A stretch of DNA of 64,000 nucleotides. Source: Synechocystis sp. PCC 6714 (GTDB taxonomy: Bacteria > Cyanobacteriota > Cyanobacteriia > Cyanobacteriales > Microcystaceae). A model generated the notes under the pieces. The model ran no database searches and was not told the origin of the DNA. It worked only from the letters and a program-made list of their open reading frames with translations. Numbering within the stretch: the stretch's first letter is position 1; each line of letters begins with the position of its first letter. The stretch lies in contig NZ_CP007542.1 in the NCBI RefSeq assembly GCF_000478825.2, positions 558,001 through 622,000 of the forward strand. The letters are read 5' to 3'. The translations under genes were made by a program, and so were the position numbers. Below are positions 18,317 to 62,668 of this stretch, piece by piece.

Positions 18317-18895
18317 ATGGACAAAATTCACCTCAGACAAACACTACTGCAACAGCGGCGGCAATGGTCTAGATTTCAATGGCAACAGCAGAGCATTGAG
18401 CTATGTGCCCAACTCCAGCAATGGTCAGTTTTTCAGCAAGCAAAGCTAGTCTGTGCCTATTTCAGTACCCAACGGGAGCCAGATTTACAATCATTATTTG
18501 AGCGTCTGGGGCAAACAAAGCTGTGGGGCTTTCCCCGCTGCGTACAAAAAAACCTCGTCTGGCATCCTTGGCAGTGGGGACAACCACTCACCACCGGCAG
18601 CTACGGCATCAAAGTACCAGCAGCACAGACTGAAATATTGTCACCCATGGAAGTAGATCTGTTATTAGTACCCTGTCTAGGAGGCGATCGCCAGGGATAC
18701 CGCCTGGGTTACGGCGGAGGCTACTATGACCGGCTATTTATCGATCCCCTCTGGCGGGCAGTACCAAAGGCCGGACTGCTTTTTGAGGTGGGTCTGAAGG
18801 AAAAGTTACCCCGTGACTCCTGGGATATTCCCCTACCAACTCTGATAACGGAAAAACAAATTATAGTCATTTCAAATAATTTCGAGACTACTTGA
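18317..18895 (+). CDS. 5-formyltetrahydrofolate cyclo-ligase family protein
   Basis: A 192-residue enzyme that converts 5-formyl-THF to 5,10-methenyl-THF with ATP, salvaging an inhibitory folate. The signature is RLGYGGGYYDRLF near residues 132-144, preceded by DLLLVPCLGGDRQGYR. The N-terminal basic helix (KIHLRQTLLQQRRQW) is also typical. It begins ten bases after radA. The last eleven codons (encoding IVISNNFETT and the stop) lie inside a dispersed 93-nt repeat element starting at 18863. The enzyme core ends before this, so the repeat appears to have replaced or extended the original C-terminus without breaking the gene. Confidence 0.9.
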   Translation: MDKIHLRQTLLQQRRQWSRFQWQQQSIELCAQLQQWSVFQQAKLVCAYFSTQREPDLQSLFERLGQTKLWGFPRCVQKNLVWHPWQWGQPLTTGSYGIKVPAAQTEILSPMEVDLLLVPCLGGDRQGYRLGYGGGYYDRLFIDPLWRAVPKAGLLFEVGLKEKLPRDSWDIPLPTLITEKQIIVISNNFETT

Positions 18896-18955
18896 GTCTT
18901 TATTGACAAGCTTTTCGGTGAATTTGACTGCCTCAGTCTTACTAGAAACGACAAT
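18863..18955 (-). repeat. 93-nt palindromic repeat, subfamily B (copy B2)
   Basis: A near-identical copy of the element at 62576-62668, on the opposite strand. Read on minus it opens ATTGTCGTTTCTAG and closes TTTGAAATGACTAT, forming imperfect terminal inverted repeats. An inner hairpin GACTG-AGG-CAGTC is present. It overlaps the end of the 5-FCL gene and abuts the A-type copy at 18956 with no base between. Confidence 0.9.
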
Positions 18956-19048
18956 ATAGTCAATCAAAGTAAGATTGAGACTACCAAGTCCTATACCAAA
19001 GAGGCTTTTAGCTCCGGTCAGTGTCTTACTTTCAATTAAATCAACTAT
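18956..19048 (-). repeat. 93-nt palindromic repeat, subfamily A (copy A4)
   Basis: Read on minus it starts ATAGTTGATTTAATTGAAAG and ends TTACTTTGATTGACTAT. It differs from the copy at 62206 at only a few positions. It lies head-to-tail with B2, in the region between the convergent 3' ends of the 5-FCL gene and sigF. The two copies together leave a 74-codon open frame (18872-19096, minus), which I regard as a by-product of repeats that happen to be open in one frame. Confidence 0.92.
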
Positions 19049-19139
19049 ATTAATATTTGTACTGGAAATCAATGACAGCAAGGCTATGGCTTCCATGCCG
19101 AATAATTCCGTCCCCTAATTGAAATAAATCCCCAATCTG

Positions 19140-19916
19140 CTAAAAAATCTCTGTGTTCAGGGCCTTTTTCAAAGCACTAATGCCCTGTTTAATACGGCGG
19201 GAAACGGTAATTACACTAACCCCCATCACCTCAGCGGCCTCCCTCTGGGTCAGGTCATGGAGAAAGACAAATTCCACAATGCGGCGGGTGCGTTCCTCCA
19301 GACCAGCTAAAGCCTGTTGTAAACGGATTTGATCCTCCAGGCTGAGTTGAAAACTACGGAATTCATGGTGGGCCAAACAGTCCCCCAAGTTAACCTGACC
19401 ATCATCGTCTCCGTTGACTTTGATGTCCAAGCTCAACAATTCCCGATTCTGTAAAGCTAGCTTGGTCGCCTGCCAATCCGTCAGAGGAACCCCCAGCATA
19501 CAGGCCGTTTCCTCATCCGTGGCAGCACGGTCATATTTGAGACGAAATTCCTGCTGAACGACGATCGCCTGACGGCCCAAATCTAACCAACGGCGAGGAA
19601 TACGTACACAGTTACTTTTGTCCCGCAGAAAATGTTGAATTTCTCCCCGAATGTAGGGAATAGCAAAGGAGCTAAAAGCATTTCCCTTACTGACATCAAA
19701 GCGTTCGATGGCCCGGATCAGCCCTAAACATCCCACCTGGGATAAATCTTCAAAACTCTCGGTGCACTGACTTGTCCAATGGTGGGCTTCTTTCCTTACC
19801 AACCCCAGGTTAACTTCCATAATCCGATTGCGTACGTCAACGCTATGGGACTCTGCGTAGACTTTAAATAGCCTCAGGGTCTCAAGTTTGAGGTTGTGGT
19901 TGGTGGCATTGGTCAT
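19140..19916 (-). CDS. sigF: Group 3 RNA polymerase sigma factor SigF
   Basis: A 258-residue alternative sigma factor of the group 3 (FliA/SigB/SigF-like) type. Region 2 is seen in LSQVGCLGLIRAIERFD and SSFAIPYIRGEIQHFLRD, region 3 in IPRRWLDLGRQAIVVQQEF, and region 4 in the helix-turn-helix LTQREAAEVMGVSVITVSRR. In PCC 6803 SigF is required for type IV pilus formation, phototactic motility and some stress responses; I assign this gene as its orthologue from length and neighbours. ATG at 19916 gives 258 residues, the length I recall; an in-frame GTG lies six codons upstream. It ends about 90 bases from the A/B repeat pair. Confidence 0.93.
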   Translation of the reverse strand: MTNATNHNLKLETLRLFKVYAESHSVDVRNRIMEVNLGLVRKEAHHWTSQCTESFEDLSQVGCLGLIRAIERFDVSKGNAFSSFAIPYIRGEIQHFLRDKSNCVRIPRRWLDLGRQAIVVQQEFRLKYDRAATDEETACMLGVPLTDWQATKLALQNRELLSLDIKVNGDDDGQVNLGDCLAHHEFRSFQLSLEDQIRLQQALAGLEERTRRIVEFVFLHDLTQREAAEVMGVSVITVSRRIKQGISALKKALNTEIF

Positions 19917-20211
19917 AGTTGTGGGTTTCGACACCTCTGGTCAACCTTACCGATGTTTAGGCGGCGCCCACATCAGCAAATATATGGAAAAAATAACAAA
20001 TTTTTGCCAACCAACATCCCAGCAAATACCAAGGAAAATCGGCTTTATCTACAGTTGGAAGCTATATTCCCCAGAGTATTGCTTAGAAATTCAGTCTGCC
20101 CTTTTCATCGGCAGCAACGAAAAGATATGGCTAAGAACCCAGTCCAATTATAGAAGTATTTCAACAGTTGAACAATAACATGCCGAAAAAGTAAACAATT
20201 CTTTAGGCAAA

Positions 20212-21093
20212 CTAAAGCCCCAGGCATTGTTTAAGCATCTGTTGGGCTTGGTATTGATAGCCTCCCCCAAACAAATTGAAGTGGTTAAGTATATGGTACA
20301 AATTGTAGAGAATTTTCCTTTGTTGATACCCCGGCTGAGCCGGGCAAATTGTATGGTAGCCCTGGTAAAATCCAGCGGGAAAACCGCCAAACAGTTCTGT
20401 CATGGCAATATCGACTTCCCCATCGCCATAGTAGGTGGCAGGGTCCAGAATCACCGGTTCCCCAGTGGTTAAAATGGCACCATTGCCAGACCATAAATCC
20501 CCATGCACTAAAGCTGGAGTCGGTTGGCGATCGCCTAGCAATTGCTTCACCTTCGGCACTACCAGGGCCGGAGCTGGAAAGTTCCCCCCCCGCCGTCGGG
20601 CTAGGGTTAGTTGATAACCAAGACGCTGCTCCGCAAAAAAGTCTGCCCAACTATCTGTCCAAGGATTGGGCTGGGGAGTGGCCCCAATGGTGTTATCAAT
20701 CTGCCAACCAAATTGAAGGCTGCCCCCCGCTTGATGCAGAGCCGCCAAGTTTTGCCCCATGCGGTACCAACTATCATGGCTACCCCGGCCAAACTCCAAC
20801 CACTCCAAAACAAGGTAACTATGGCCCGCTGCACTGCCATGGCAAATAGGACGAGGAACCCGTATGGTTTTGGTCGCCGCCATCCCTTCCAACCCTAGGG
20901 CTTCGGCTTGGAACATGGGCCACTGGTGGGCTTGGTTCAGCTTGACAAAATATTTTGCCTCCCCGTCCATCAGGCAATAACCCTGGTTAATGCAGCCGCC
21001 ACTGACCGATCGCCGTTCTGTGCCAGTGAAGGATTGCCCGGTGGCTTGGCTAATTTGTTGGGCAATGGTTTGCCAGAGGGAAGGGGAACTCAC
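20212..21093 (-). CDS. Fructosamine/ketosamine-3-kinase family protein
   Basis: A 293-residue kinase-fold protein of the FN3K family, which phosphorylates ketosamines or ribulosamines on glycated proteins so that they fall apart. Characteristic pieces are the glycine-rich start SVSGGCINQGYCL, the lysine in YFVKLNQ, the catalytic loop LVHGDLWSGNGAIL and the metal-binding stretch VILDPATYYGDGEVDIAMTE. There is no ATG at the N-terminus; GTG at 21093 is the likely start. It is 36 bases downstream of the glutaredoxin gene in the same direction, so protein repair genes may be coexpressed. The physiological substrate in cyanobacteria is not established. Confidence 0.9.
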   Translation of the reverse strand: MSSPSLWQTIAQQISQATGQSFTGTERRSVSGGCINQGYCLMDGEAKYFVKLNQAHQWPMFQAEALGLEGMAATKTIRVPRPICHGSAAGHSYLVLEWLEFGRGSHDSWYRMGQNLAALHQAGGSLQFGWQIDNTIGATPQPNPWTDSWADFFAEQRLGYQLTLARRRGGNFPAPALVVPKVKQLLGDRQPTPALVHGDLWSGNGAILTTGEPVILDPATYYGDGEVDIAMTELFGGFPAGFYQGYHTICPAQPGYQQRKILYNLYHILNHFNLFGGGYQYQAQQMLKQCLGL

Positions 21094-21129
21094 AGCAACA
21101 GGGAAGATAAGAACAGGGCAAGGGGATTG

Positions 21130-21459
21130 CTAAGCAGGGCTGGAGGGGGTAGCTAAAAGAGGATCCAATTGGCCTTGACTATCCAGGCTATAGAGTTGGT
21201 CACAGCCGCCAATGCCCTGGTTATTAATGAAAATTTGTGGCACTGTGCGCTGGCCCTCCGACCGTTCGGCCATGGCTTGTCTACCCTGGTCATCACCATC
21301 AATTTTGTACTCGACAAATTTGACTCCTTTCCACCAGAGTAAAAGCTTGGCTCGGATGCAGAAAGGACAGGTTTGCCAAGTATAAATTTCCACTTTTGCT
21401 TTGACCCCATCAGCTTGGCGGCCACTAAGTAGGGGAAGCCAGTTAAACAAATTAGCCAT
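21130..21459 (-). CDS. grxC: Glutaredoxin (GrxC-type, CPFC)
   Basis: A 109-residue dithiol glutaredoxin. The active site CPFC lies at residues 31-34 in TWQTCPFCIRAKLLL. The glutathione-binding TVPQIFINNQGIGGCDQL region follows, with the cis-proline and GGCD motif. The N-terminal 20 residues are longer than in E. coli GrxC and match the 109-residue Grx1 (Slr1562) of PCC 6803. ATG at 21459 is chosen because the upstream frame extension is not conserved in style. It lies between hisZ and the fructosamine kinase gene on one strand. Confidence 0.94.
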   Translation of the reverse strand: MANLFNWLPLLSGRQADGVKAKVEIYTWQTCPFCIRAKLLLWWKGVKFVEYKIDGDDQGRQAMAERSEGQRTVPQIFINNQGIGGCDQLYSLDSQGQLDPLLATPSSPA

Positions 21460-21525
21460 GGAATTACCGGAAAGTTTTGATTGATTACGATTACACAAGA
21501 TTAATTTTGATCATGCTAGGGATTT

Positions 21526-22746
21526 TTAAAGATCGCTGGGATGATCGACAATCTCGCCATCGGCCCTAACCCACACCAGCTCACCGATCGCCATGGCTTG
21601 GGCATAGGCATTCAGTTCCTCCGGAGATCGCCCACCGAGGTCTAATTCCACCCGGCGATCGGGATAATGACGGCGTAATTGTTGGGCGTGGCGAAAAGCG
21701 GCTCCTTCGGCCGAATCATCCACCGGGCAAACTAGATAATCAATGGCAGCAGTGCTAGTGGGTAACGTGCCCGATGCCAACAAACATTGGTGCAAGTCTT
21801 CAATATTTAGGGAGAAGCCGGTGCCGGGAAAGGATTGTTTTTGGGGATGGTAGTGGCTCAGCAACTGGTCATAACGTCCTCCCTGACCCAGTACATAGCA
21901 GTTGTCGGTTTGGCGACTCACCGCCTGGAAAACCATGCCAGTGTAGTAATCAAAGGGTTGCAACCAACTCAGATCCAAGACTAAATTCAATGGGCCATCG
22001 CCACTGGCGGCCACCAAAGATAACAATGCCTGCAGGCGATCGACCCGGTCTAAACATTCCCCTTGCAAGCTCAATTGACCTAACCTAGCCAATACTTCCT
22101 TCACAGAACCCCGCAGGTCAAACAATTGCAGAGCCAGGTTTTTTGCCTCATCGTCAGGATAGGGCAGTTGGGACAGTTCCACATAGTCCAAGCGAGTGAT
22201 GCAATCCCGCACAGCAGTTTGCAGATGGGTGGGTAATTTGGCCAGCAGACTTCTGGTCAACCCCGCATCCCCCAAAATTAACTGCCAATCGGTCAAGCCC
22301 AATTGGGTCAGGCAATCCGTCAACAATAGAAGAATTTCCGCGTCAGCCCGAACGCCCCCGGCAAACAGCAATTCTATGCCCGCTTGGAAAAACTCCATTT
22401 GCTTACCGTGGTAGCCTTCCGGGGGATTACGAAAGACATTGGCCCGATAACACAATCTTTGGGGTTGGCTGTCGGTCATGCGGGTCACCACTGCCCTAGC
22501 AATGGAGGCGGTTAATTCGGGCCGTAGTCCCAACCGTCCTTCGCCACTGTCCTGGAGTTGAATAACTTTGTTGGCGGAAATGGCCCCGCCGGCCACTAGG
22601 GTATCCAACCATTCCAACGTCGAGGTGACGATGCGCTGGTAACCCCAACGGTGAAAGGTTTTTTGTAGTTGGTCGTTGATGCAGGCTTTCTGGGCCACTT
22701 CCAGGGGCAATAAATCCCTGGCTCCAGCGGGGGGATGATGAATCAT
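21526..22746 (-). CDS. hisZ: ATP phosphoribosyltransferase regulatory subunit HisZ
   Basis: A 406-residue paralogue of histidyl-tRNA synthetase that lacks aminoacylation and pairs with short-form HisG to start histidine synthesis. The class II motif pieces are LRPELTASIARAV and PLNLVLDLSWLQPFDYYTGMVFQ, while the histidine-binding loop is altered as GQGGRYDQLLSHY. The N-terminus IHHPPAGARDLLP is the usual HisZ form and fixes ATG at 22746 over an upstream TTG. It was probably annotated as a second hisS in older genomes. It is flanked by aroE and grxC on the same strand. Confidence 0.9.
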   Translation of the reverse strand: MIHHPPAGARDLLPLEVAQKACINDQLQKTFHRWGYQRIVTSTLEWLDTLVAGGAISANKVIQLQDSGEGRLGLRPELTASIARAVVTRMTDSQPQRLCYRANVFRNPPEGYHGKQMEFFQAGIELLFAGGVRADAEILLLLTDCLTQLGLTDWQLILGDAGLTRSLLAKLPTHLQTAVRDCITRLDYVELSQLPYPDDEAKNLALQLFDLRGSVKEVLARLGQLSLQGECLDRVDRLQALLSLVAASGDGPLNLVLDLSWLQPFDYYTGMVFQAVSRQTDNCYVLGQGGRYDQLLSHYHPQKQSFPGTGFSLNIEDLHQCLLASGTLPTSTAAIDYLVCPVDDSAEGAAFRHAQQLRRHYPDRRVELDLGGRSPEELNAYAQAMAIGELVWVRADGEIVDHPSDL

Positions 22747-22917
22747 GGTGATAGGGCTTTGGCTCGGATTCTCCTCAGCCTCCAATATAGTGTTTTCCCG
22801 CAACTCAGAGGAAGTTTGGGCGAATTTAGGCTTAACTTTAGGCGATTTAGTTAAAGCCGGGAACTGAACTACAGTTTGGCCTAAAGTGTTGGCTCCCCGG
22901 GCAAAATGTCCCTTGAA

Positions 22918-23790
22918 CTATTGGTATTTTGCCAAATGTTCCAGCAATGCCTGGCCCATAATTTCCACCGGTACTTCCCTACCTAGCCAAATTCTCAGCG
23001 CCGCCGCCCCCTGTTCCACCAACATTTCTAAGCCGTCGATGGTCACTAACCCTTGCTGCTGGGCTCCCCGCAAAAACTCGGTTGGCCTTGGAGTGTAAAT
23101 TAGGTCGTAGGCGATCGCCGTGGGAGGTAGTTTTTCTAGCCAAGATTGGTCAACGGGGGACTGATGAACATGGGGAGTCATGCCGATGGGGGTTCCATTA
23201 ATCAGTAAATTAGTTTTTCCTAACACTCCAGGTAATTTTTCCCAGGGCAGAACTCGCAGAACCTGTTGAATTTTTTGGTCCGTCCAACTGTTAGCAAACT
23301 GAGCCAATTTTTCCTCGCTACGCCCCACCACCACAATTTCTCCACAGCCCAACTGACTCAGCCCCACCACCACAGCCCGGGCTGCTCCACCGTGGCCCAG
23401 AATAACCGCTGTTAGGTCTCCCCAATTTCTATTCAGTTTTTTCAGGGGAGCTAAAAAACCTTCCACGTCCGTATTTGTACCCCGCCAACCGCCGTCTTCC
23501 CACCAGAGCGTATTGACTGCCCCCACCAGTTGGGCTGTTGTGCTCACCTGGGTCAACAACGGTATGACCGTTTGCTTATGGGGAATGGTCACACTCAAAC
23601 CCTGCACTCCACTGACCCCCAAGCCATTGATTGCCACCACTAAGTCCTCCGGGGCAATGGGAAAAGCGGTATACACATGATCACTGGCGATCGCCTGGAG
23701 CACCGCATTGTGCATCACGGGGGAAAGGGAATGGCTAACAGGGTGGCCAATTACACCAAGGAGCTTAGTTTTACCGGTGATGGGAAGCAT
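22918..23790 (-). CDS. aroE: Shikimate dehydrogenase
   Basis: AroE reduces 3-dehydroshikimate to shikimate with NADPH on the way to aromatic amino acids and quinone head groups. The 290-residue protein has the substrate motif VIGHPVSHSLSPVMHN, the catalytic lysine and threonine region LSVTIPHKQTVIPL, the GHGGAARAVVVGLSQLG dinucleotide-binding loop and the NGTPIGMTP segment. ATG at 23790 is used; a TTG lies three codons upstream. It is divergent from the tRNA-Val gene by only about 50 bases. Confidence 0.96.
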   Translation of the reverse strand: MLPITGKTKLLGVIGHPVSHSLSPVMHNAVLQAIASDHVYTAFPIAPEDLVVAINGLGVSGVQGLSVTIPHKQTVIPLLTQVSTTAQLVGAVNTLWWEDGGWRGTNTDVEGFLAPLKKLNRNWGDLTAVILGHGGAARAVVVGLSQLGCGEIVVVGRSEEKLAQFANSWTDQKIQQVLRVLPWEKLPGVLGKTNLLINGTPIGMTPHVHQSPVDQSWLEKLPPTAIAYDLIYTPRPTEFLRGAQQQGLVTIDGLEMLVEQGAAALRIWLGREVPVEIMGQALLEHLAKYQ

Positions 23791-23841
23791 GGAGGACAAT
23801 TGTTAATTGCAAGGGAGCCATGTTATATTACTAAATCGCTA

Positions 23842-23915
23842 GGACGTATAGCTCAGTTGGTTAGAGTACATCGTTGACATCGATGGGGTCACTGGTTCGA
23901 ATCCAGTTACGTCCA
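23842..23915 (+). tRNA. tRNA-Val (anticodon GAC)
   Basis: A complete 74-base cloverleaf. The acceptor arms GGACGTA and TACGTCC pair fully, with discriminator A at 23915. The D arm is GCTC/GAGT, the anticodon stem CATCG/CGATG, and the T arm ACTGG/CCAGT around TTCGAAT. The loop TTGACAT puts GAC at 23876-23878, which reads GUC and GUU valine codons. CCA is not encoded. Confidence 0.97.
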
Positions 23916-24061
23916 TTAGTTTTTGTTTTTTCCCGTACAGTGACATGGGTTTCTCTGTCGGTACTGTATGAACCGATGTAATGGCAATACGGAGGAAACA
24001 GGGGTCTTACCAGGACGTACAAAAACATCCATGGTGGAATAAAGAATAGGGCTGGAAAAAT

Positions 24062-24154
24062 ATACTCAATAACACGAAACCAATAATTCGGCCATCAAGA
24101 AATTTCTACTGTCTAAAAGACTTAAGCAGTCTCGAAATTATTTGAAATGACTAT
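24062..24154 (+). repeat. Diverged 93-nt palindromic repeat, subfamily B (copy B3)
   Basis: The last 39 bases, AAAGACTTAAGCAGTCTCG onward to TGACTAT, match B1 and B2 almost exactly. The first half has drifted, but the outer end still begins ATACTCA, complementary to the closing TGACTAT except for one position, and the total length from end to end is again 93. This suggests an old full-length copy rather than a fragment. Confidence 0.7.
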
Positions 24155-24272
24155 GTTTAATAATTTAATAAGCTTAAGAGGGTGATAATAGCTTCGGGAA
24201 GGCAAGTCTTTTGTCACAATTATCTTCGCCTTACTACTTAGACTGATGAAAGAGCGATAACTTTCTAGTTGC

Positions 24273-24303
24273 CCAGGTCAATTGCCCTTTCAGATTAACC
24301 TGG
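24273..24303 (-). terminator. Stem-loop after DUF3153 gene
   Basis: On the minus strand CCAGGTTAAT pairs with ATTGACCTGG (one G-T pair) around an 11-base loop, just 12 bases beyond the stop of the DUF3153 gene. No T-run follows, so it may be a 3' end stabiliser or a factor-dependent terminator rather than a classic intrinsic one. Confidence 0.45.
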
Positions 24304-24314
24304 ACAACATTTCG

Positions 24315-25070
24315 CTACTGGTAACTTTTAATGACCCCAGGCCAACGGCCATATTTGAAATAAAAACCGCCTAAACAAAGGGCAATAATCAAAATAGTGC
24401 CGATCGCCAAGTAACTGGGGACAAAAAAGCTAGTTTCAATAACGTTAATTTGTCCGGGTTTTAACTGCCATTGGCCAGGGATTTTTGTTAGTATCTCTTG
24501 CCCTGGAGCAGATGGGCTCTGGAGAGTCAGAGGAGTTTGTAAATTAAAGTTAAGGTCAATCAGAGAACCAGGACTAAGGATAATATTACCCTGGTTGGAT
24601 AAAACCCCGAGGGCCCGCAGGTCAACGGTTAACTTGAGATGATTACGGTCTACCAATAGCCAGTTACTTTGCTCTAATTCCAGTTCCGCTTTTAGATTAA
24701 GTAAATCCAACTGATCCGGTTCCGGCGCTCTTCGGCCTTTGGGGAGTTGGGGATTGAAAAAGCGATTGAATTTTTCCACTAACTCCTGACCACTGCCAAA
24801 GGGAATAGTCACCACTAAAGTTTGCTCCGACGGGCGATCGGTATGACCGTTCAAATCCCTAGCCCGCTGGTCTAAACTTTTGAGCCAACGATCTGCTTCC
24901 GCTTGACTCAGGGTGGTCAACTGTTCTCCCAAAGTAATATGTTGGACAATCTCCCCATAATGTTGCTCCGGAAAACGGATCCCCACGTCGTAATTGACAC
25001 AACCCGTCACCAGACAGCAAACGACCACAAGCATCGGTAGTAAGCGTTTAAACCATTTCTGGGGGGCCAT
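24315..25070 (-). CDS. DUF3153 membrane lipoprotein
   Basis: A 251-residue protein of the cyanobacterial DUF3153 family. The N-terminus has a short basic stretch, a hydrophobic run and the lipobox LVTGC at about residue 24, so it is likely lipid-anchored. The body carries VNYDVGIRFPEQHYGEIVQH, LTTLSQAEADRWLKSLDQRA and a C-terminal single membrane span (about 222-240) followed by FKYGRWPG. A protein anchored at both ends would face the periplasm or thylakoid lumen. The function is unknown. ATG at 25070 is preferred because it places the lipobox correctly; the open frame extends 27 codons upstream. Confidence 0.8.
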   Translation of the reverse strand: MAPQKWFKRLLPMLVVVCCLVTGCVNYDVGIRFPEQHYGEIVQHITLGEQLTTLSQAEADRWLKSLDQRARDLNGHTDRPSEQTLVVTIPFGSGQELVEKFNRFFNPQLPKGRRAPEPDQLDLLNLKAELELEQSNWLLVDRNHLKLTVDLRALGVLSNQGNIILSPGSLIDLNFNLQTPLTLQSPSAPGQEILTKIPGQWQLKPGQINVIETSFFVPSYLAIGTILIIALCLGGFYFKYGRWPGVIKSYQ

Positions 25071-25282
25071 AATTCGCAAAGCCTCATTGATTGGGGAGAG
25101 GTGGACATATTCAAGGGTCGACAGCCAGTATATCAATCCCCACAGCTCCAAAGATAGTTATTTGTACCATTAAAGCAACCCTTCCTTGGGATAATTTCCC
25201 TCAAAAACGAGGCTTGTCAGGCTTTTTCCTTGGCTAAGGATTTTGATACAATCAGATCTCCCATAGCAGGAGAAGATTGGAA

Positions 25283-26152
25283 GTGACCGTCAAACCGGAT
25301 TGGCTCCGAGTCAAAGCACCCCAGTGGCAAAGGGTGGGCAGTGTTAAGGATATTTTACGGGATTTACAACTGAATACTGTCTGTGAAGAAGCTTCCTGTC
25401 CCAACATTGGTGAGTGTTTTCAAGCCGGTACAGCTACCTTTCTGATTATGGGTCCTGCTTGCACCAGGGCGTGCCCCTACTGTGACATTGACTTTGAAAA
25501 ACGTCCCCAACCCTTAGATCCCACGGAGCCGGAAAGATTGGCCACCGCAGTGAAAAGGCTAAACCTCAAGCACGTGGTCATTACCGCCGTTAACCGGGAT
25601 GATTTGCCCGATGGAGGAGCTGCTCAATTTGTGGGTTGCATTGAGGCCACACGTAAAGTTTCGCCGGGTACTACCATTGAGGTCTTGATTCCCGATTTAT
25701 GCGGCAATTGGCAAGCTTTGGCAACCCTATTGAAGGCCGCGCCGGAGGTTTTGAACCACAATATGGAAACGGTCCCACGGCTTTATAAACGGGTGCGACC
25801 CCAGGCAGATTATGCCCAATCTTTGGAGTTGTTCAACCAAGCTAAACAGATTTTGCCCAAGGTTTATACTAAGTCTGGCATTATGGTGGGGCTAGGGGAA
25901 ACCGATGCAGAAGTGCGTGGGGTGATGCAGGATTTGCGCCGGGTAGACTGTGATATTTTAACCATTGGTCAGTATCTCCAACCCAGTCAAAAACATTTAG
26001 GGGTTAAGGAATTTGTTACCCCGGAACAGTTCGATGCTTGGCGGATTTATGGTGAATCCATTGGCTTTTTACAGGTCGTTTCCTCCCCACTAACCCGTAG
26101 TTCCTACCATGCGGAACAGGTACAAGCCCTAATGGCCCGTTTCCCCCGTTAA
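25283..26152 (+). CDS. lipA: Lipoyl synthase
   Basis: This radical SAM enzyme inserts two sulfurs into octanoyl groups on pyruvate dehydrogenase E2 and glycine cleavage H protein. Both clusters are visible: the auxiliary cluster cysteines in [16 protein letters not shown] and the radical SAM cluster in [13 protein letters not shown]. The conserved [16 protein letters not shown] and closing [11 protein letters not shown] are also seen. The start is not ATG: a GTG at 25283 (MTVKPDW) lies ten bases after AGGAG, and a TTG at 25277 is the alternative. The stop overlaps the stop of the convergent acyltransferase gene. Confidence 0.95.
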
Positions 26153-34704: not shown

Positions 34705-35250
34705 AGATAACTCTTTAATGAAAATTATTTTTATTTGGTTCCGGCAATCATCCTAGGGGTAAATAATATTTATTGTCAATAGTGAGCTAAGTCCCGGTCG
34801 AACGATACTGAGTCCTGTTTCTGATCTTGATCAATGAATTAGGAATAATTATGAACGGCAACCAAGTAAAGAACAATGCATTTGCTCTTTATAACCATCT
34901 GTTTATCTAGATATTTGGTGATGGAAAATATTTTGAGAAAGAATTAACTCCCCATTTATGGTAGCTGTGGTAAAAAAAGTAGAAATATACTTCAGGGTTA
35001 AATAATGAAAGTTGGGAGAAGATATAGATGATTTAATTGAAAGTAAGACACTGACCGGAGCTAAAAGCCTCTTTGGTAAAGGTCTTAGCCATCTCAGTCT
35101 TACTTTGATTGACTATAAGTCTTGTTCGCGAAAACCACAGACTGGGAGTTGAAGTAGGAAAACTAAAACAATAACAAATACATCCAAAAAACAAAAGAGC
35201 AATTTTGATCAGTTGGCCGACACCGCCATTGGTGCTGGGGCGATCGCCTT
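34705..35250. other. 546-base divergent spacer with one repeat copy
   Basis: The spacer lies between the phosphatase start and dus. It holds repeat copy A3 (35024-35116). A 19-codon frame at 34851-34910 is preceded by AGGA but I do not support it as a gene. No RNA gene is visible. Confidence 0.5.
35024..35116 (+). repeat. 93-nt palindromic repeat, subfamily A (copy A3)
   Basis: It opens ATAGATGATTTAATTGAAAG and ends TTACTTTGATTGACTAT. The first 58 bases are almost identical to the copy at 62206. This is the only clear copy that lies upstream of a gene start (dus) rather than at 3' ends. Confidence 0.9.
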
Positions 35251-53257: not shown

Positions 53258-53326
53258 AGGGACAGATGGGGAGATGGATCCTAACGGGGAACCATCTTAG
53301 CAAAACCGTCCGGGGTAATTGACCTT

Positions 53327-54172: not shown

Positions 54173-54266
54173 CGGTCTCCCCAACGGCGATCGCCAATTT
54201 TTCTCTCAACAAAAGCAAAATATGCAAGGGCCAGCCTGGCAGTACGTTCGCTGTCGTACCTAATTG

Positions 54267-54305
54267 ATAAAAAAGGGGAGGAACCTTTTTATTTCAGGCC
54301 TCCCC
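54267..54305 (-). terminator. Intrinsic terminator of cyAbrB1
   Basis: On the minus strand GGGGAGG pairs with CCTCCCC and is followed at once by TTTTTTAT. The stem is seven G-C-rich pairs, the loop is 17 bases. It begins about 54 bases after the cyAbrB1 stop. This is the cleanest intrinsic terminator in the left part of the right arm. Confidence 0.88.
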
Positions 54306-54358
54306 CCCAGCGAAAAACTACCGAGTCCCCCTTGCTTAGAGAACCACATCAGGGAAAT

Positions 54359-55157: not shown

Positions 55158-55736
55158 ATGGTTTTTGCCCCCCTTGATTCTGGCTCTACCCCCCTCCAAC
55201 CCTTTCCCACTGCCCCTACCCGTCAACAGCTACGACGAATGAATCTCTACCTAGATCAACTCCTGTTGGCTTTAGTGGCCCTGACTGATGTAGATCAAAT
55301 CACCTGGACAAAAATTCTGGAAAAAATTTCTGCTTCCACCCCCGCGGGCTATCCTTTGGGCAAACATTATCCGGCCCCCACCCTTGTCCCTGGACAGTTA
55401 GATGGGGAAGGCATTCGTCTTCTGACCATGGCGATCGCCCATTTGGGGGGGCATTACCAAGAACTTCTGCGGCGATCGGTCAGCTTGATTGAGCAAACCA
55501 AGGAACAAGGTAAAAATCCGTTGCAAACTGTACTGCTGAAGGAATACGCTGAGAAATTTACCATCGCTTGGCAGGCATATCAGAATAAACAAGGGGAAGA
55601 AGGGAATTTATCTTCCTTAGTGCCCACGGAAGAACGGCTTCTCTCCCTACTAACGGAATTATTTTTCTTTAGTAGTAAAGATGGAGCCCGACGACTCTGG
55701 AGCGTACTAACAGCCATGGCTTTTCCCCTCCCCTAG
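55158..55736 (+). CDS. DUF3038 cyanobacterial protein
   Basis: A 192-residue soluble helical protein that I place in the DUF3038 family, found only in cyanobacteria. Recognisable pieces are LYLDQLLLALVALTDVD, ITWTKILEKISAST and LSLLTELFFFSSKDGARRLW. In many genomes DUF3038 is followed by a DUF4335 gene; here the next gene is a PilZ-like protein instead. Function is unknown. ATG at 55158 is the first of the frame. Confidence 0.75.
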   Translation: MVFAPLDSGSTPLQPFPTAPTRQQLRRMNLYLDQLLLALVALTDVDQITWTKILEKISASTPAGYPLGKHYPAPTLVPGQLDGEGIRLLTMAIAHLGGHYQELLRRSVSLIEQTKEQGKNPLQTVLLKEYAEKFTIAWQAYQNKQGEEGNLSSLVPTEERLLSLLTELFFFSSKDGARRLWSVLTAMAFPLP

Positions 55737-55821
55737 CAATTGGGCAAGGGAGAATGGCAAAATTAAGGATTAAGAAGTTCCATTAACTGAATGGACAAAT
55801 TTCACAGAGGAAGTATTCCCT

Positions 55822-56238
55822 ATGGCTGCAGAGTTCCCGTCCCCAGACTCCGAAGAAGTGCTAACCATTGCCCATTTACAGGGCATTCAGGAGCGACGCC
55901 AGGAACAAAGAATGTTGGCCTTTTGCCAGGTGTTTAATATGGCCGGGGAACTGGTGGGGGTATCCTTTGATCTAACTCGTCAGGGTATTTGTGTCAGTGT
56001 GCCCAACGACTGGCCCCAGGGCAGTGACTTTGAAGTCAAACTCCGGCGCATGGACAACGAAGCTTTGCCCACCATTACCGTCAAGGTCAACCCCATGTGG
56101 CGTCAGTCTCGCAACGAGAGTTTTGATGAAATTGGCGGCAAAATCATTGCGGTGGATTCCCCCGAAGCATTCGCCACTTTTCTACAATATTGCCAACAGG
56201 CGGGCCCCAGTGGTTTGGTGGAACGCCCCAATTCCTGA
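55822..56238 (+). CDS. PilZ-like domain protein
   Basis: A 138-residue protein. It has the two halves of a PilZ c-di-GMP site in weakened form: RRQEQRM near residue 25 resembles the RxxxR motif, and DLTRQGICVSVP near 52-63 resembles D/NxSxxG with threonine in place of serine. The rest (about 60-120) suits a six-stranded PilZ barrel. Binding of c-di-GMP is therefore possible but not certain. The start follows GAGGAAG. It is 85 bases after the DUF3038 gene. Confidence 0.62.
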   Translation: MAAEFPSPDSEEVLTIAHLQGIQERRQEQRMLAFCQVFNMAGELVGVSFDLTRQGICVSVPNDWPQGSDFEVKLRRMDNEALPTITVKVNPMWRQSRNESFDEIGGKIIAVDSPEAFATFLQYCQQAGPSGLVERPNS

Positions 56239-56382
56239 CGATCACCCCCAGCTTTATCTGTTGATTTTTTCTCCCTATTCCCTGGATCGAATCGGGGGAT
56301 TTTTCTCCATACCTCATATACCCATAATTGTCAGAGTCTGATAGGATTTAGCAAAGTATTAAAATTTGTAAAGAAAATTAAG

Positions 56383-57363
56383 ATGCGAGTTTTGGTGGTA
56401 GGCGGCACAGGCACCCTGGGCAGGCAAATTGTTCGGCAGGCGATCGACCAAGGTCACACCGTTGTTTGCCTAGTCCGTAGCCTGAGAAAAGCAACCTTTC
56501 TCAAGGAGTGGGGGGCCACCATTGTGGGGGGAAATATCTGTAAGCCGGAAACTCTGCCCCCAGCCCTAGAAAATATTGATGCAGTCATTGACGCTTCCAC
56601 CGCCAGGGCTACCGATTCCCTCACCATCCGTCAAGTGGACTGGGAAGGTAAGCTTAATTTAATTCGAGCAGTGCAAAAAGCCGGTATCAAAAAGTTCATC
56701 TTTTTCTCCATTTTGCGGGCAGCGGAATATCCCAAAGTGCCCCTGATGGATATCAAAAATTGTACGGAAAAATTTTTAGCCCAAACGGATTTGGATTACA
56801 CCGTTCTGCAACTGGCGGGTTTCATGCAGGGTTTAATTGGCCAGTACGCCATCCCCATTTTGGATAACCAATCGGTCTGGCAAACCGGCGAGAATACTCC
56901 CATTGCCTATATGAACACCCAGGATGTGGCCAAATTCGCAGTGCGGGCGGCGGAATTGGACAGTGTGGCCCGTAAAACCTATCCAGTGGTGGGTAGTCGG
57001 GCTTGGGGGGCGACGGAAATTATTCAACTCTGTGAAAGAATGTCTGGCAACACGGCCCGCATTTCCCAAGTGCCCATGGCGGTGCTCAGATTTATGCGGG
57101 GCCTTACCCGCTTTTTCCAGTGGACCTATAACGCATCCGATCGCCTCGCCTTTGCGGAGGTGTTGGCCAGCGGTAAAGCGTTAACGGCGGATATGGCCCC
57201 GGTGTACGAAGAATTTGGCCTTGACGCCAAGGAAACCACCACCTTAGAAGCCTATTTGCAAGAGTATTTCGGGCGTATTATCAAAAAGCTCAAAGAACTG
57301 GATTATGAGGTTAATCCAGCCCAAACGGAGGGCAAAAAGAAGAAAAATAATTTCTTTTTCTAG
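56383..57363 (+). CDS. ycf39: Ycf39, NmrA-like photosystem II assembly factor
   Basis: A 326-residue atypical short-chain dehydrogenase with the Rossmann motif VLVVGGTGTLGRQIVRQAID at residues 3-22 (GGTGTLGRQ is the glycine-rich loop). It lacks the catalytic Tyr-x-x-x-Lys pair in the standard place, as expected for NmrA-like proteins. The Ycf39 of PCC 6803 (Slr0399) works with high-light-inducible proteins to deliver chlorophyll to newly made D1 during photosystem II assembly. The lysine-rich C-terminus KKLKELDYEVNPAQTEGKK is typical. It precedes nadK on the same strand. Confidence 0.94.
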   Translation: MRVLVVGGTGTLGRQIVRQAIDQGHTVVCLVRSLRKATFLKEWGATIVGGNICKPETLPPALENIDAVIDASTARATDSLTIRQVDWEGKLNLIRAVQKAGIKKFIFFSILRAAEYPKVPLMDIKNCTEKFLAQTDLDYTVLQLAGFMQGLIGQYAIPILDNQSVWQTGENTPIAYMNTQDVAKFAVRAAELDSVARKTYPVVGSRAWGATEIIQLCERMSGNTARISQVPMAVLRFMRGLTRFFQWTYNASDRLAFAEVLASGKALTADMAPVYEEFGLDAKETTTLEAYLQEYFGRIIKKLKELDYEVNPAQTEGKKKKNNFFF

Positions 57364-57445
57364 ATTTGATGGGCAAATTTGATAGTTTTATTTATAGCCT
57401 GGTTTGTCCGCTCCCTGTTCCCTGACTCCCTAGGATCTCGCCCCT

Positions 57446-58363
57446 GTGCCAAAAGTCGGCATCATTTTCAACGACGATAAGCCCACCGCCTGTAGCGTTG
57501 CCCAAGAATTGCAGGAGCAACTGCAAAGCAGTGGGTTCACAGTGGCGATGGAAACTGGTTCTGGTGGCCTGCTGGGCTACTCCCAACCCGATCGTCCCAT
57601 TTGCCATACCCGCATCGAGCATTTGACTCCGCCCCATTTTGACGAGTCCATGCCCTTTGCCATTGTCCTGGGGGGAGACGGCACTGTATTGTCGGCTTTC
57701 CGTCAGTTGGCCCCCCTAGGCATTCCCCTACTGACCATTAACACGGGTCACATGGGCTTTTTAACGGAAATTTATCTGAATCAACTGCCCACGGTGATCG
57801 AACAATTAATTGCTGGTAACTATCAGGTCGAAAGCCGTTCCATGATGACGGTGCGGTTGATGCGGGAAGAAACCCTATTGTGGGAAGCTCTTTCCTTGAA
57901 TGAAATGGTGTTGCACCGGGAACCCCTCACCAGCATGTGCCATTTTGAAATTCGGGTGGGACACCATGCTTCCGTGGACATTGCCGCCGATGGCATCATT
58001 GTTTCCACCCCCACGGGTTCCACGGCCTATTCTCTCAGCGCTGGGGGCCCAGTGGTTACCCCCGATGTACCGGTATTTCAGTTAGCGCCCATTTGTCCCC
58101 ATTCCCTCGCTTCCAGGGCTTTGGTTTTTTCCGATCTGGAACCGGTAACTATTTTCCCTGCTACTCCCAACCGCATGGTGTTGGTGGTGGATGGCAATGG
58201 TGGTTGTTATGTTCTACCAGAAGACCAGGTTCATTTGTCGAAATCACCCTATGCGGCCAAGTTTATCCGCCTGCAAACGCCGGAATTTTTCCGTATTCTG
58301 CGGGAGAAGTTAGGCTGGGGGTTGCCCCATATTGCTAAACCGACTTCGGTGGAGTTGCCATGA
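57446..58363 (+). CDS. nadK: NAD kinase
   Basis: A 305-residue NAD kinase giving NADP for photosynthetic electron transport. The GGDGT motif is in [15 protein letters not shown], the second NAD-binding element in [18 protein letters not shown] and the conserved [10 protein letters not shown] between them. The start codon is GTG at 57446; no ATG is available before the conserved [11 protein letters not shown]. Its stop overlaps the next start by four bases (ATGA), so the downstream solute-binding gene is translationally coupled. Confidence 0.95.
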
Positions 58364-59520
58364 ATTTGCCCCGCTATTCCCGCCGCCATTTTCTGCAGTC
58401 CGCCGCCGTTGTCGGCCTTGCCACTGGTTTGGGGGGATGCGGATCTGGCCAGGGCAGTAGCAGAGAAATTCAGTTTTTAAACCGTTCCCTGCCCCCCCAG
58501 TTAATTAATCAATTTCAGCGACAGTTTCCCCAAGCTAAGAAATTGAATTTCAAGGCGATCGCCAACCTGCAGAGTTTATTTGACAATTTGCAAACCTGGC
58601 AAAATGCCCAAAATTCAGATACGTCCAAAGGACTGTGGCGTAACAGACCGGGGGTAAATCAGACCCCAGCAGCCCAGTTGGTCACGGGCGGAGATGTGTG
58701 GCTGGAACGGGTGATAAAAGGAAAACTCATCCAACCCTTTGCCCTTGATCAGTTGAGTCAATGGCCGGAATTATCATCACGGTGGCAATTGTTGGGGCAA
58801 CGCAATGACCAAGGCTTACCTGATCAAAACGGCAAAATTTGGGCTATTCCCTACCGTTGGGGCCCCACCATGATTATTTATCGCCGCCAACCCTTTGCCG
58901 ATCTGGGTTGGGAACCAAAGGATTGGTCCGATCTGTGGCGGCCAGACTTAAAGCAACACATTGCCCTGGTGGATGATCCCAGGGAGGCGATCGGTTTGAC
59001 TCTGAAAAAGCTAGGCTATTCCTACAATGTCACCAATCCCGGAGCTATTAATGCCTTACCCTCCGCTTTGCAGGAATTAGCGACCCAGGTGAAGTTTTAT
59101 AGCAACAAGTATTACCTCCAAGCTCTGCTCAACAGGGACGTGTGGCTGGCTGTGGGTTGGTCAAACGAAATTATTCCCCTGCTGAGAAATCAGTCGGAGT
59201 TAACTGCCATCATTCCCAGTTCTGGCACATCCCTTTGGGCTGACCTCTGGACCATGCCCGCCGATGCTGAAGCTGCTGAAATTACTTATAAATGGCTGAA
59301 TTTCTCTGCCCAGCAATCCAGCCTAGAGCAAATGGCCACTTTCAGTAACGCCCTGGCAGTGCCCTATCAAAACCTGGAGGTTTCTGCCCTGAGCACTAAC
59401 CCCTTATTAGCTTTTTCACCGGAGTTACTGGAGCGCTGTGAATTCCTCGCCCCCCTGGATAGTGCCACCGCCAACCAATACAAGCAACTCTGGCAAACCA
59501 TGCGGGGAGACTTAGGATAG
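58360..59520 (+). CDS. PotD-like extracellular solute-binding lipoprotein with Tat signal
   Basis: A 386-residue type II periplasmic-binding protein. The N-terminus has the twin-arginine motif [16 protein letters not shown] and then the lipobox GLGGC, so it should be Tat-exported and lipid-anchored. The body resembles spermidine/putrescine or iron-binding proteins ([54 protein letters not shown]). No permease or ATPase gene is nearby. I recall the PCC 6803 orthologue Slr0401 being discussed as a polyamine-binding candidate; the ligand is not set by the sequence. It overlaps nadK by four bases. Confidence 0.87.
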
Positions 59521-59548
59521 TGTTTGTCAAAATCTATGGCGCGGGGAT

Positions 59549-59577
59549 ACCCCCGGATTCATCCGTGGGGAGTGTCA
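59549..59577 (+). mobile_element. Second possible IS200/IS605-type end relic
   Basis: ACCCCCGGAT-TC-ATCCGTGGGG forms a tight hairpin, followed by AGTGTCAA. This closely resembles subterminal hairpins at right ends of cyanobacterial IS605/IS1341 elements. There is no T-run, so it does not look like an intrinsic terminator, though it lies 30 bases beyond the stop of the solute-binding gene. No transposase frame is nearby. Confidence 0.35.
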
Positions 59578-59705
59578 ATCTATCGATTGAGCTAACTGAA
59601 CAGAGCAACTATCCTGGTCGATATGCATCCTGCTTGGGAAGCATGGCGGTAGATAATATCCCAGGGAATATTTAGGGAACACCAAGTTTGAAACCCTGAA
59701 ACTAA

Positions 59706-59777
59706 AGCTGGTGACGGGATTTGAACCTGCGACCGACTGATTACAAATCAGTTGCTCTACCACTGAGCTACACCAGC
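59706..59777 (-). tRNA. tRNA-Thr (anticodon TGT)
   Basis: A complete 72-base cloverleaf on the minus strand. The acceptor arms GCTGGTG and CACCAGC pair fully, with discriminator T. The D arm is GCTC/GAGC, the anticodon stem ACTGA/TCAGT around TTTGTAA, and the T arm GCAGG/CCCGT carries TTCAAAT. The anticodon at 59743-59745 reads ACA and related threonine codons. CCA is not encoded. Confidence 0.97.
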
Positions 59778-59875
59778 ATCTCTGATACAGAATAGCAGAA
59801 GATTAACCCAGAGGCTCTGGCTAATTTTTGCCCTTGAAAAACTTCTTTTAACGATCCGTAAAACCCAGTAAAACC

Positions 59876-60460
59876 ATGACTACTTTAATTGTCGCCACAG
59901 GGAACCCAGGTAAACTAGCCGAGATGCAAACTTACTTAGAGCCCCTTGGTTGTCAATTGGCCCTCAAGCCGCCGGAAATTGAGGTGGAGGAAACCGGCAG
60001 TACATTCTATGAAAATGCTTGCTTAAAAGCTTCCCAGGTCGCCAAGGTGCTGAATCAATGGGCGATCGCCGATGATTCTGGTTTAGCGGTGGATGCGCTG
60101 GATGGGGCACCGGGTTTATATTCCGCCCGTTACGGCAACAGCGATGGGGAAAGAATTGCCAAATTGCTCCAGGCTCTAGAAGGGGTAAGCCAAAGACAAG
60201 CTCAATTTATTTGCGTAGTGGCGATCGCCGCCCCCAATGGCAGTATTCAACTAAGTAGTGAAGGCATTTGCCCGGGGGAGATCACCCACAATCCTAGGGG
60301 CGACCATGGTTTTGGTTATGATCCAATTTTTTGGGTACCGGAACATCAAAAAACCTTTGCAGAAATGACCAAGGTAGAAAAACAAACAGTAAGCCACCGG
60401 GGAAAAGCGTTTAACCAACTCATCCACCAGTGGCCTGGGTTGAAATTTGACAGTCTTTGA
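59876..60460 (+). CDS. rdgB: RdgB/HAM1 non-canonical purine NTP pyrophosphatase
   Basis: A 194-residue house-cleaning enzyme that hydrolyses dITP, ITP and XTP to monophosphates. The N-terminal LIVATGNPGKLAEMQTYL is the family signature. The catalytic and metal-binding residues are in ENACLKASQVAKVLNQWAIA (ends in the conserved region), DDSGLAVDALDGAPGLYSAR and GDHGFGYDPIFW. The closing KQTVSHRGKAF is also conserved. The start ATG at 59876 is clear. It converges on glnB. Confidence 0.95.
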   Translation: MTTLIVATGNPGKLAEMQTYLEPLGCQLALKPPEIEVEETGSTFYENACLKASQVAKVLNQWAIADDSGLAVDALDGAPGLYSARYGNSDGERIAKLLQALEGVSQRQAQFICVVAIAAPNGSIQLSSEGICPGEITHNPRGDHGFGYDPIFWVPEHQKTFAEMTKVEKQTVSHRGKAFNQLIHQWPGLKFDSL

Positions 60461-60564
60461 TGGCGGTGAAGGGCAGAATGCTGGGGATAGGAGAACAAAA
60501 GATAAAATTAATTGTCTCAATTTGCCCAACATTAGCGGTAACCGGGCAGCCAATCCCAAAAAGA

Positions 60565-60939
<375 letters not shown>

Positions 60940-60991
60940 TTATTTATAAGGCTAGCCAGACACTTTTAACATGTTCTGGAAAAGTTTTTTT

Positions 60992-61005
60992 GTAAAAATC
61001 AGTAC
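60992..61005 (-). promoter_or_regulatory. NtcA box upstream of glnB
   Basis: GTA-CTGATTTT-TAC on the minus strand is a perfect GTA-N8-TAC site. About 22-23 bases downstream the candidate -10 sequence (TTAAAA or TAAAAG) is poor. A second TATAAA lies further on at about 60943-60948 and could serve a sigma-70-type promoter. PCC 6803 glnB is known to be NtcA-activated, so the site fits. Confidence 0.8.
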
Positions 61006-61205
61006 CGTTTGGCAGTGCCTATGGTCGAACAGAAGGCATTTTGGTGAGAATTATCGAAACAAAACTACTATTCTTTTGGCAAAAGAATCCGTTACCCTAG
61101 AGGAGTGAACGGCATTATGTTTAACTAACGTGCTTCATTCTGCCCCGGGTTTGGTCAACCCTTTGCCCAGGGCCCCTAGCTGGAATATCAAAAATTTTTC
61201 TCTCT

Positions 61206-62195
61206 ATGCTTAAGATGCTCAAGAATTTACCTCTACCTAAAAACATTGCCTGGCGATCGGTCTGGGTGCGGGGCACTTCAGTGGTAATTATTTTTGTCCT
61301 CGCCTTTGCCCTGGTCTTCACCCCTACCTTTGAAGCGGAAGCTCGCCGCAGCGGTGGCCGCATTGGGGGCGGTTCTTTCCAGGCCCCCAGCCGTAATTAC
61401 AGTAGTCCTAGCGGTGGCTCCTACCGTTCCGGTGGCACCTACGGAGGCGGTGGCTTTGGTTTTCCCTTTATCATTCCCTTCTTTGGGTTTGGGGGAGGAT
61501 TCGGCGGTATCTTTGGCATTTTGATTATGATTGCGATCGCCAATGTGGTGATCAATGCCATTCGTAATGGCGGCGGCGGCAATGGCGAGGGGGGGGGAGC
61601 CTTAACTAGCAATGATCCCCAGGTGGGTATTGCCCAAATTCAGGTGGGTTTACTGGCCAGTGCCAAGGAGCTGAAAAAGGAACTGGATGAATTGGCCCTG
61701 TCCGCTGATACTGGCACCGCCAATGGTCGTTCCCTAGTGCTCCAGGAAGCAACTTTAGCCCTACTCCGTCATCCTGAATATTGGGTTTATGGCTCTAGCC
61801 AGAGTGACAAAGTGCGTTTGAGCGCCGCAGAAGCCGCCTTTAACCAATTGGCTCTGACGGAACGGAGTAAGTTCGCCGACGAAACCTTAAGCAATTTCAA
61901 TAATCAGCTACGCCAGGCCGGCAGGGCCCCAGCCATTGGGGGAGATGAACCAGGATCGGTGCCTGATGGTGCAGGAGAGTATATTCTGGTCACCATTATT
62001 GCGGCGGCCCAGGGCAATGTGAACCTGCCGGCAGTCAACGACTCGATTCAGCTTAAGCAGTCTCTTCAAACCCTCGGCGGCATTAGTAGCGATCGCCTAT
62101 TGGCCATTGAGGTGCTCTGGACTCCCCAGGCGGAAGGAGACACCCTCAGCAGCAACGACATTATCAGTGAATATCCTGACCTGAGATTGGTGTAG
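61206..62195 (+). CDS. DUF1517 thylakoid/envelope membrane protein
   Basis: A 329-residue protein of the DUF1517 family. The N-terminus has a hydrophobic signal or anchor (VVIIFVLAFALVFTPTF), then a glycine/serine-rich segment (about 50-85, SGGRIGGGSFQAPSRNYSS) and a second glycine-bordered hydrophobic span (about 85-120). The C-terminal domain contains VQVGLLASAKELKKEL-like sequence (IQVGLLASAKELKKEL), LLRHPEYWVYGSSQSDKV and the closing LLAIEVLWTPQAEGD. The plant relative FLAP1 acts in fluctuating-light acclimation; this is from memory. The cyanobacterial orthologue is Slr0404. A repeat copy starts ten bases after the stop, and a terminator follows it. Confidence 0.86.
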   Translation: MLKMLKNLPLPKNIAWRSVWVRGTSVVIIFVLAFALVFTPTFEAEARRSGGRIGGGSFQAPSRNYSSPSGGSYRSGGTYGGGGFGFPFIIPFFGFGGGFGGIFGILIMIAIANVVINAIRNGGGGNGEGGGALTSNDPQVGIAQIQVGLLASAKELKKELDELALSADTGTANGRSLVLQEATLALLRHPEYWVYGSSQSDKVRLSAAEAAFNQLALTERSKFADETLSNFNNQLRQAGRAPAIGGDEPGSVPDGAGEYILVTIIAAAQGNVNLPAVNDSIQLKQSLQTLGGISSDRLLAIEVLWTPQAEGDTLSSNDIISEYPDLRLV

Positions 62196-62205
62196 TGGAT
62201 TAGAC

Positions 62206-62298
62206 ATAGTTGATTTAATTGAAAGTAAGACACTGACCGGAGCTAAAAGCCTCTTTGGTAAAGGATTTGGCCGTCTCAATCTTACTTTGATTGACTAT
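62206..62298 (+). repeat. 93-nt palindromic repeat, subfamily A (copy A1)
   Basis: It opens ATAGTTGATTTAATTGAAAG and closes TTACTTTGATTGACTAT, with imperfect terminal inverted repeats (ATAGT...AAAGTAAGA on each strand). It sits between the DUF1517 stop and its intrinsic terminator, so it is inside the transcript. Confidence 0.92.
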
Positions 62299-62323
62299 AC
62301 AACTGAAGATTAAATTTCTAAGG

Positions 62324-62351
62324 GCCTAGGTCAGTTTACCTGGGCTTTTTT
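62324..62351 (+). terminator. Intrinsic terminator of the DUF1517 gene
   Basis: GCCTAGGT pairs with ACCTGGGC (one G-T pair) around CAGTTT and is followed directly by TTTTTT. It lies about 130 bases beyond the stop codon, displaced by the 93-nt repeat. Confidence 0.9.
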
Positions 62352-62459
62352 GTTACACCCTAACAAATCACCAAAGGGGCTTGGCCAGTGAAAAATCGAC
62401 TTTTCAGTCTTCTCTGACCCCGGGTAGTCAACAGAACCTCAACTGCTTACGCTAGGACT

Positions 62460-62552
62460 ATAGTTGATTTAATTAAAAGTAAGACACTGACCAGAGCTAA
62501 AAGCGTCTTTGGTAAAGACTTTAGTCGTCTCAATCTTACTTTGATTGACTAT
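62460..62552 (+). repeat. 93-nt palindromic repeat, subfamily A (copy A2)
   Basis: This copy has the best-paired inner stem, GTCTTT-GGT-AAAGAC, where A1 and A3 have mismatches. The ends are identical in pattern to A1. It lies 23 bases before B1. Confidence 0.92.
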
Positions 62553-62575
62553 AACAAAGCTTTTAACCCAGTTTT

Positions 62576-62668
62576 ATGGTCGTTTCTAGTAAGACTGACG
62601 CAGTCAAATTCACCGAAAAGCTTGTCAATAAAGACTTAAGCAGTCTCGAAATTATTTGAAATAACCAT
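62576..62668 (+). repeat. 93-nt palindromic repeat, subfamily B (copy B1)
   Basis: It opens ATGGTCGTTTCTAG and closes TTTGAAATAACCAT. The inner hairpin is GACTG-ACG-CAGTC. From base 54 it aligns to A2 without gaps (shared TAAAGACTT, GTCTC and closing AT). It ends 15 bases before the proC stop on the opposite strand, so it is likely transcribed with proC. Confidence 0.92.

Follow-up and report, generated by a model that had tools for sequence, protein, structure and literature searches.

Repeat copies in the window

The DNA analysed here, hereafter the window, is a stretch of 64,000 nucleotides (nt) from Synechocystis sp. PCC 6714 (positions 558001-622000 of contig C1, in a genome of 3,738,889 bases in four contigs), and it carries copies of a short, imperfectly palindromic repeat with two subfamilies, A and B. 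A preliminary description had counted seven copies, each of exactly 93 nt. Six of them were recovered at that length by a repeat search and by hidden Markov models (HMMs), whereas the seventh, which had been placed at 24062-24154, consists of 39 nt of B with host DNA next to it (Table 1). The own-genome set compared in one of these searches also contained 38 bacterial contig loci (L172-L209), none of which was used. The interval 24062-24095 (34 nt) is host sequence, not element, and is found, together with the sequence just upstream of it, at two places in the sister genome G003. The segment 23993-24095, downstream of a tRNA gene, is found at two G003 places (83-84%).

Table 1 Copies and fragments of the repeat in the window.
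Feature	Position	Strand	Remarks
B copy	18863..18955	-	93 nt; abuts the A copy at 18956-19048; provides the end of the upstream reading frame
A copy	18956..19048	-	93 nt; repeat search and HMM
B fragment	24116..24154	+	right 39 nt; the model search extends it to 24110
A copy	35024..35116	+	93 nt; repeat search and HMM
A copy	62206..62298	+	93 nt; preceding base C, not T
A copy	62460..62552	+	93 nt; repeat search and HMM
B copy	62576..62668	+	93 nt; ATGGT/ACCAT ends

The reading frame of 5-formyltetrahydrofolate cyclo-ligase (18317-18895) runs into a B copy, which gives it its last residues and stop codon, and its similarity to the sister genomes G001 and G003 stops at the element. The flanks of this B copy and the abutting A copy (18863-19048) map to separate places in G003, and the pair thus also marks a rearrangement.

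Copy number and length across the genome

The repeat is present genome-wide, and many more copies were found beyond those in the window. Sequence models built from 36 A and 28 B copies located subfamily A at no fewer than 83 places and subfamily B at no fewer than 63, fragments included, with copies on all four contigs, C1 among them. These counts are lower bounds, with the best 150 of 2320 (A) and the best 150 of 2192 (B) first-look candidates scored; the models returned 92 and 69 rows, of which 9 and 6 weak rows were copies of the other subfamily and were set aside. BLAST with one A and one B copy as queries gave at least 41 places each. The pattern TATAGT-N75..95-ACTATA occurs at 87 places in the genome versus 5 for a reversed control pattern, and a chance origin of the family is thus excluded. 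The cores of A and B are homologous (z 4.0, with 0 of 300 shuffles as high), which bears out the common origin proposed earlier for the two subfamilies. Plasmid and phage collections, from which records close to the window's genome may be missing, gave no match.

The length of the repeat is nearly constant genome-wide. The A places comprise 76 near-full, uninterrupted copies, one copy split by an element resembling ISY100 (ISTcSa; an IS630/Tc1-mariner element of Synechocystis PCC 6803) and six shorter ones, and the B places comprise 57 near-full, uninterrupted copies, one split by an ISY100-like element and five fragments. With near-full defined as at least 86 of 93 model positions, and with insertions and deletions (indels) counted from place lengths, 126 of the 133 uninterrupted near-full copies are free of indels (70/76 for A and 56/57 for B), and the other seven have one each (-1, -1, -1, +1, +1, -10 and -9). 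The aligned subsets are gap-free and contain 184 base differences from the consensus in 36 A copies and 63 in 28 B copies. Since these subsets consist mostly of best-scoring copies and shared descent affects both substitution and indel counts, the scarcity of indels is notable but no proof of selection.

Target site duplication and mobility

At 68 distinct sites, the 93-nt copy is preceded by T in 61 cases and followed by A in 66 (T/ATAGT...ACTAT/A). An A copy has entered the ISY100-like element at locus L084; the intact copies of that element, L078 and L080, carry a single TA at that position. With the 93 nt taken out, L084 and L078 are identical in 122 of 123 bases. Because the filled site has two TAs and the empty sites have one, the mobile unit of the A copy is 91 bp (TAGT...ACTA) flanked by duplicated TA, and a length of 93 nt results when one base is added from the TA on either side. 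Nested insertions whose two borders can both be seen agree with a TA-duplicating 91-bp unit: an ISY100-like element lies at a TA within an A copy (L078), B lies in A and, in two cases, A lies in A. An ISY100-like end was seen on one side inside one B copy. In a check of empty sites in sister genomes, three of ten flank pairs were aligned. The joined flanks of L032 align over their full length to both G001 and G003 (80-81% identity), giving a clean empty site in each, whereas those of L026 and L019 are too diverged from the sister genomes for an empty site to be judged.

The same TA, at positions 11-12, of different A copies has been entered by an ISY100-like element and by two A copies (L078, L261 and L262), and is perhaps an insertion hot spot.

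Together, the repeat is short and multi-copy, contains no transposase gene, is flanked by duplicated TA and has IS630-like terminal inverted repeats (TIRs). We conclude, at a probability of roughly 0.9, that the family is a non-autonomous DNA transposon, or miniature inverted-repeat transposable element (MITE), of the IS630/Tc1-mariner kind, the same kind as the Correia and RUP repeats. The resemblance to MITEs suggested in the preliminary description is supported by the TA duplication, the TIRs, the nested insertions and the empty sites. MITEs derived from IS630 are already known, and Correia and RUP have been named as examples of them (PMC2817692).

Ends and candidate transposases

A search for IS630 DDE_3 genes in the genome gave 16 matches, 15 of them over the curated cut-off, and the PCC 6714 genome paper lists 11 IS630 elements (PMC4060947). 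The genome contains full ISY100-like elements of ~957 bp with TATAGC ends. The left end of these elements agrees with the right end of A at 20-21 of 28 positions (p 5e-5 against random TATAG-mers), and none of the 86 genomic TATAG-mers reached this score. The Trichodesmium contig L160 carries an IS630 element whose ends agree with those of Trichodesmium MITEs at 22-24 of 28 positions and with those of the Synechocystis A and B copies at 20-22. The best end resemblance is to the Trichodesmium IS630 element or, for one A end, to the resident ISY100-like element.

Mobilisation in trans by an ISY100-group enzyme is the best reading of these sequence comparisons, from which we also infer which enzyme may be responsible. 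An ISY100-group transposase would bind both imperfect ends in trans, excise the element and join it to a new TA, and the copy number would go up via repair or replication. The resident ISY100-like element would be the best present candidate for mobilising A, and B would be better matched by a since-lost relative whose ends read TATAGTC, as they do in Trichodesmium. In vitro, the ISY100 transposase is reported to protect 24-bp inverted repeats, and mini-elements that retain 30 bp at each end are as mobile as the full-length one (PMC2170065).

Several observations weigh against this picture. The comparison with the ends of resident insertion sequences, suggested in the preliminary description, holds for the right end of A; the B ends resemble the ISY100-like left end weakly (p 0.01-0.09), and the ISY100-like right end matches the A and B ends no better than 7-47% of background TATAG-mers. 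An autonomous element with TATAGTC ends was not found in this genome, whose IS630 elements are TATAGC-ended. Moreover, neither the near absence of indels nor the bias toward convergent genes described below is required by the MITE explanation.

Relic IS630 elements were considered as the parent and rejected. Neither the two diverged DDE_3 fragments beside A copies (L278 and L279) nor an 80%-identical relic (L088/L277) gave a TATAGTC-ended element.

Placement between genes

The 68 distinct sites comprise 38 between convergent genes, 22 between tandem genes, three between divergent genes, one inside a frame and four that are incomplete. Expected numbers for the 63 classified sites are 7.3 convergent, 38.5 tandem and 17.2 divergent (chi-square p 1e-32), as derived with the same frame caller from the intergenic TA sites in 294 kb of chromosome (320 convergent, 1680 tandem and 749 divergent). 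The sample covers loci L001-L075 of 146 places and is not random, being made up of the best-scoring copies and the first places of the pattern search; reading frames were called crudely (at least 90 codons), and the borders of L045 and L057-L059 are off by up to 6 nt. Copies also lie close to one another: the 135 listed chromosomal places, which are all but one B fragment, include 21 pairs within 500 bp versus 2.6 under uniform placement, an excess that is expected if insertion is tolerated in only some gaps. For an IS630-type MITE, the copies that survive would be chiefly those downstream of gene 3' ends, in the gaps between convergent genes, since those in promoters, operons and genes would have been purged.

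The left flank of L036 and the right flank of L002 contain repeats of ~100-180 nt that recur elsewhere at 82-95% identity (for example, G000:C1:784101 and 879602).

Alternative explanations

One possible alternative is domestication, in which elements that were once mobile are now selected as hairpins that end transcripts in both directions or stabilise mRNA where two genes converge. The excess of convergent sites and the shortage of divergent ones would both be expected of such elements, one B copy provides a gene's stop codon, and one B strand folds better than shuffled sequence with z -4.2. That value is the extreme of six folds of four copies, which range from z -1.6 to -4.2, and the folding advantage anticipated in the preliminary description is thus present but modest. 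However, the stems show no covariation: two-sided changes were found in 0 of 35 A pairs (shuffled mean 1.8) and 1 of 32 B pairs (shuffled mean 0.5), no more than in shuffles, and the cross-genus alignment supports the terminal stem alone. These counts contradict the earlier claim that the stems are maintained by paired changes, and ATTGT/ACTAT, offered as a compensated pair, is actually a broken one; covariation was rejected as a sign of RNA function. BLAST with B and A copies gave no match in four other genomes of the genus (G001-G004; E 0.01), which argues against an old shared function, and purging of harmful insertions accounts for the placement bias equally well. We consider domestication improbable.

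A structured non-coding RNA family that merely multiplied would agree with the folding of some copies below shuffles, but is very improbable, as the elements have no Rfam match at gathering score (two tRNAs being the only matches in the window), covariation is absent and binding of a transposase to the two ends accounts for the inverted repeat. The least probable explanation is that these are REP-like palindromes spread by a REP-associated tyrosine transposase: the repeats are indeed short, palindromic, numerous and mostly intergenic, but the REP likeness put forward in the preliminary description is unsupported because the elements duplicate their TA target, and they have long IS630-like terminal repeats, whereas target duplication is, to our knowledge, absent from REP elements.

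Relation to known elements

The repeats share features with several known systems. ISY100 has a TA target and TATAG ends, but it is ~957 bp long, carries its own transposase and ends in TATAGC rather than TATAGT. RUP of Streptococcus pneumoniae, for which IS630-Spn1 has been proposed as the mobiliser (PMC3049150, PMC2229807), is similar in its size (~107 bp), terminal repeats and TA target; however, it is about one helical turn longer, and its core is unrelated to that of A (z at most 0.8, for one RUP-like copy from Streptococcus sp. LYSM12). The Correia elements (also CREE or NEMIS) of Neisseria are described as having TATAG[CT] ends, a 104-108 bp class and target duplication, but they end in TATAG[CT]GGATTAA, from which the A and B ends differ, and have further classes of 153-157 and 71-73 bp (PMC2649163). 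The Correia core, too, shows no relation to that of A (z at most 0.7). Elements with the same end consensus occur in Trichodesmium, Okeania, Moorena, Microcystis and others and mostly measure 92-96 nt from TA to TA, but their cores are at best weakly similar to A (z ~2-3). Literature searches gave no name for these elements.

A Correia-like core (L119, from a Neisseria MAG) aligns with a RUP-like core (L158, from Streptococcus sp. LYSM12) at z 5.5, far above shuffles (0 of 1000 as high), and the Correia-like and RUP-like repeats may thus share an origin across phyla.

In line with the preliminary description, which had recognised no named family, none turned up in our searches, and no published description of the A/B family was found in the open-licence full-text literature on Synechocystis, cyanobacterial IS630 MITEs, dispersed palindromes and the end sequences. 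The main text of the PCC 6714 genome paper contains neither 'repeat' nor 'palindrom' (PMC4060947). In its account of such repeats, a 2007 review gives IS-like ends for RUP only and presents their movement by IS transposases as a proposal without experimental support (PMC2229807).

The family thus represents ~130 near-full, apparently undescribed IS630-type MITEs in a relative of the laboratory model PCC 6803, and its common ends tie the cyanobacterial elements to the Correia and RUP repeats. Its kind is ordinary; the near-fixed length and the placement bias toward gene 3' ends merit follow-up. Since the ISY100 transposase has been purified and is reported to require no other protein (PMC2170065), one could test in a tube whether natural bacterial MITEs are mobilised in trans and how element length affects the pairing of their ends.

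Length classes of elements with the same ends

Bacterial contigs were scanned for TATAGTCRTTTC...ACTATA spanning 84-114 nt. At least 118 stretches were obtained, part of which, many in unrelated phyla, look like chance. Among the matches listed, a length of 92-96 nt predominates in the same-ended elements of Trichodesmium, Okeania, Hydrocoleum, Moorena, Microcystis and others, and one of 104-109 nt in those of Neisseria, Cardiobacteriaceae, Volucribacter, Streptococcus and Oscillatoria; the Trichodesmium row of this per-genus tally takes in a few other organisms, such as that of L095. A re-scan of the listed stretches, free of a length limit but on loci chosen under that limit, gave at least 104 TIR-bounded elements, versus 5 in shuffled stretches. 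Their lengths fall at 92-96 nt (52 elements), 104-109 nt (30), 97-103 nt (4) and 87-91 nt (2), with individual lengths of 87, 91, 97, 98, 102 and 103 nt also occurring, and 16 elements are longer, some of them nested or from another family.

In cyanobacteria, 42 of 386 genomes have a match between 62 and 122 nt; the rows judged real by eye lie at 93-96, 102-105 and 117-118 nt, and the rest are chance-like. A stricter and longer pattern (119-179 nt), applied to 194 genomes, found five genomes with lengths of 127, 137, 140 and 163-165 nt and a chance-like 167 nt. The same-ended elements of other bacteria thus cluster near 94, 105 and 118 bp. One cyanobacterial genome, G086, has ten TATAGTC-ended elements, all exactly 118 nt long, whose cores are of at least two kinds.

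Among 16 families, the best length period is 11.5 bp (scan p 0.0002), and among the 12 families of at most 121 bp it is 11.7 bp (p 0.004); a period of 10.5 bp fits less well (p 0.038 for 16 families and 0.004 for 12). The families were defined by hand after the lengths had been seen, and this analysis is exploratory. A published study reports a sequence period of ~11 bp in bacterial genomes, which is usually attributed to the helical pitch of supercoiled DNA, and also discusses the curvature of transposons (PMC4132750). The length classes may, though not securely, point to a helical-turn constraint.

It is tempting to go further, although we think the following rather unlikely to be correct as a whole. 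The fixed length could be a mechanical constraint, such that an IS630-type transposase can pair the ends of so short an element only if the two are in the correct helical phase. MITEs with TATAGTC ends would then occur at discrete lengths near 94, 105 and 118 bp, and perhaps at greater ones, about one supercoiled turn apart. A single bacterium-wide superfamily, with ISY100-like transposases as its enzymes, would then include the Synechocystis, Trichodesmium, Microcystis, Correia-like and RUP-like elements as its length classes.

A second family, with TATAGCAATCC ends and a variable length of ~124-157 nt (one of 252 nt), was observed in Okeania and Trichodesmium contigs (L144, L183, L094 and L100).

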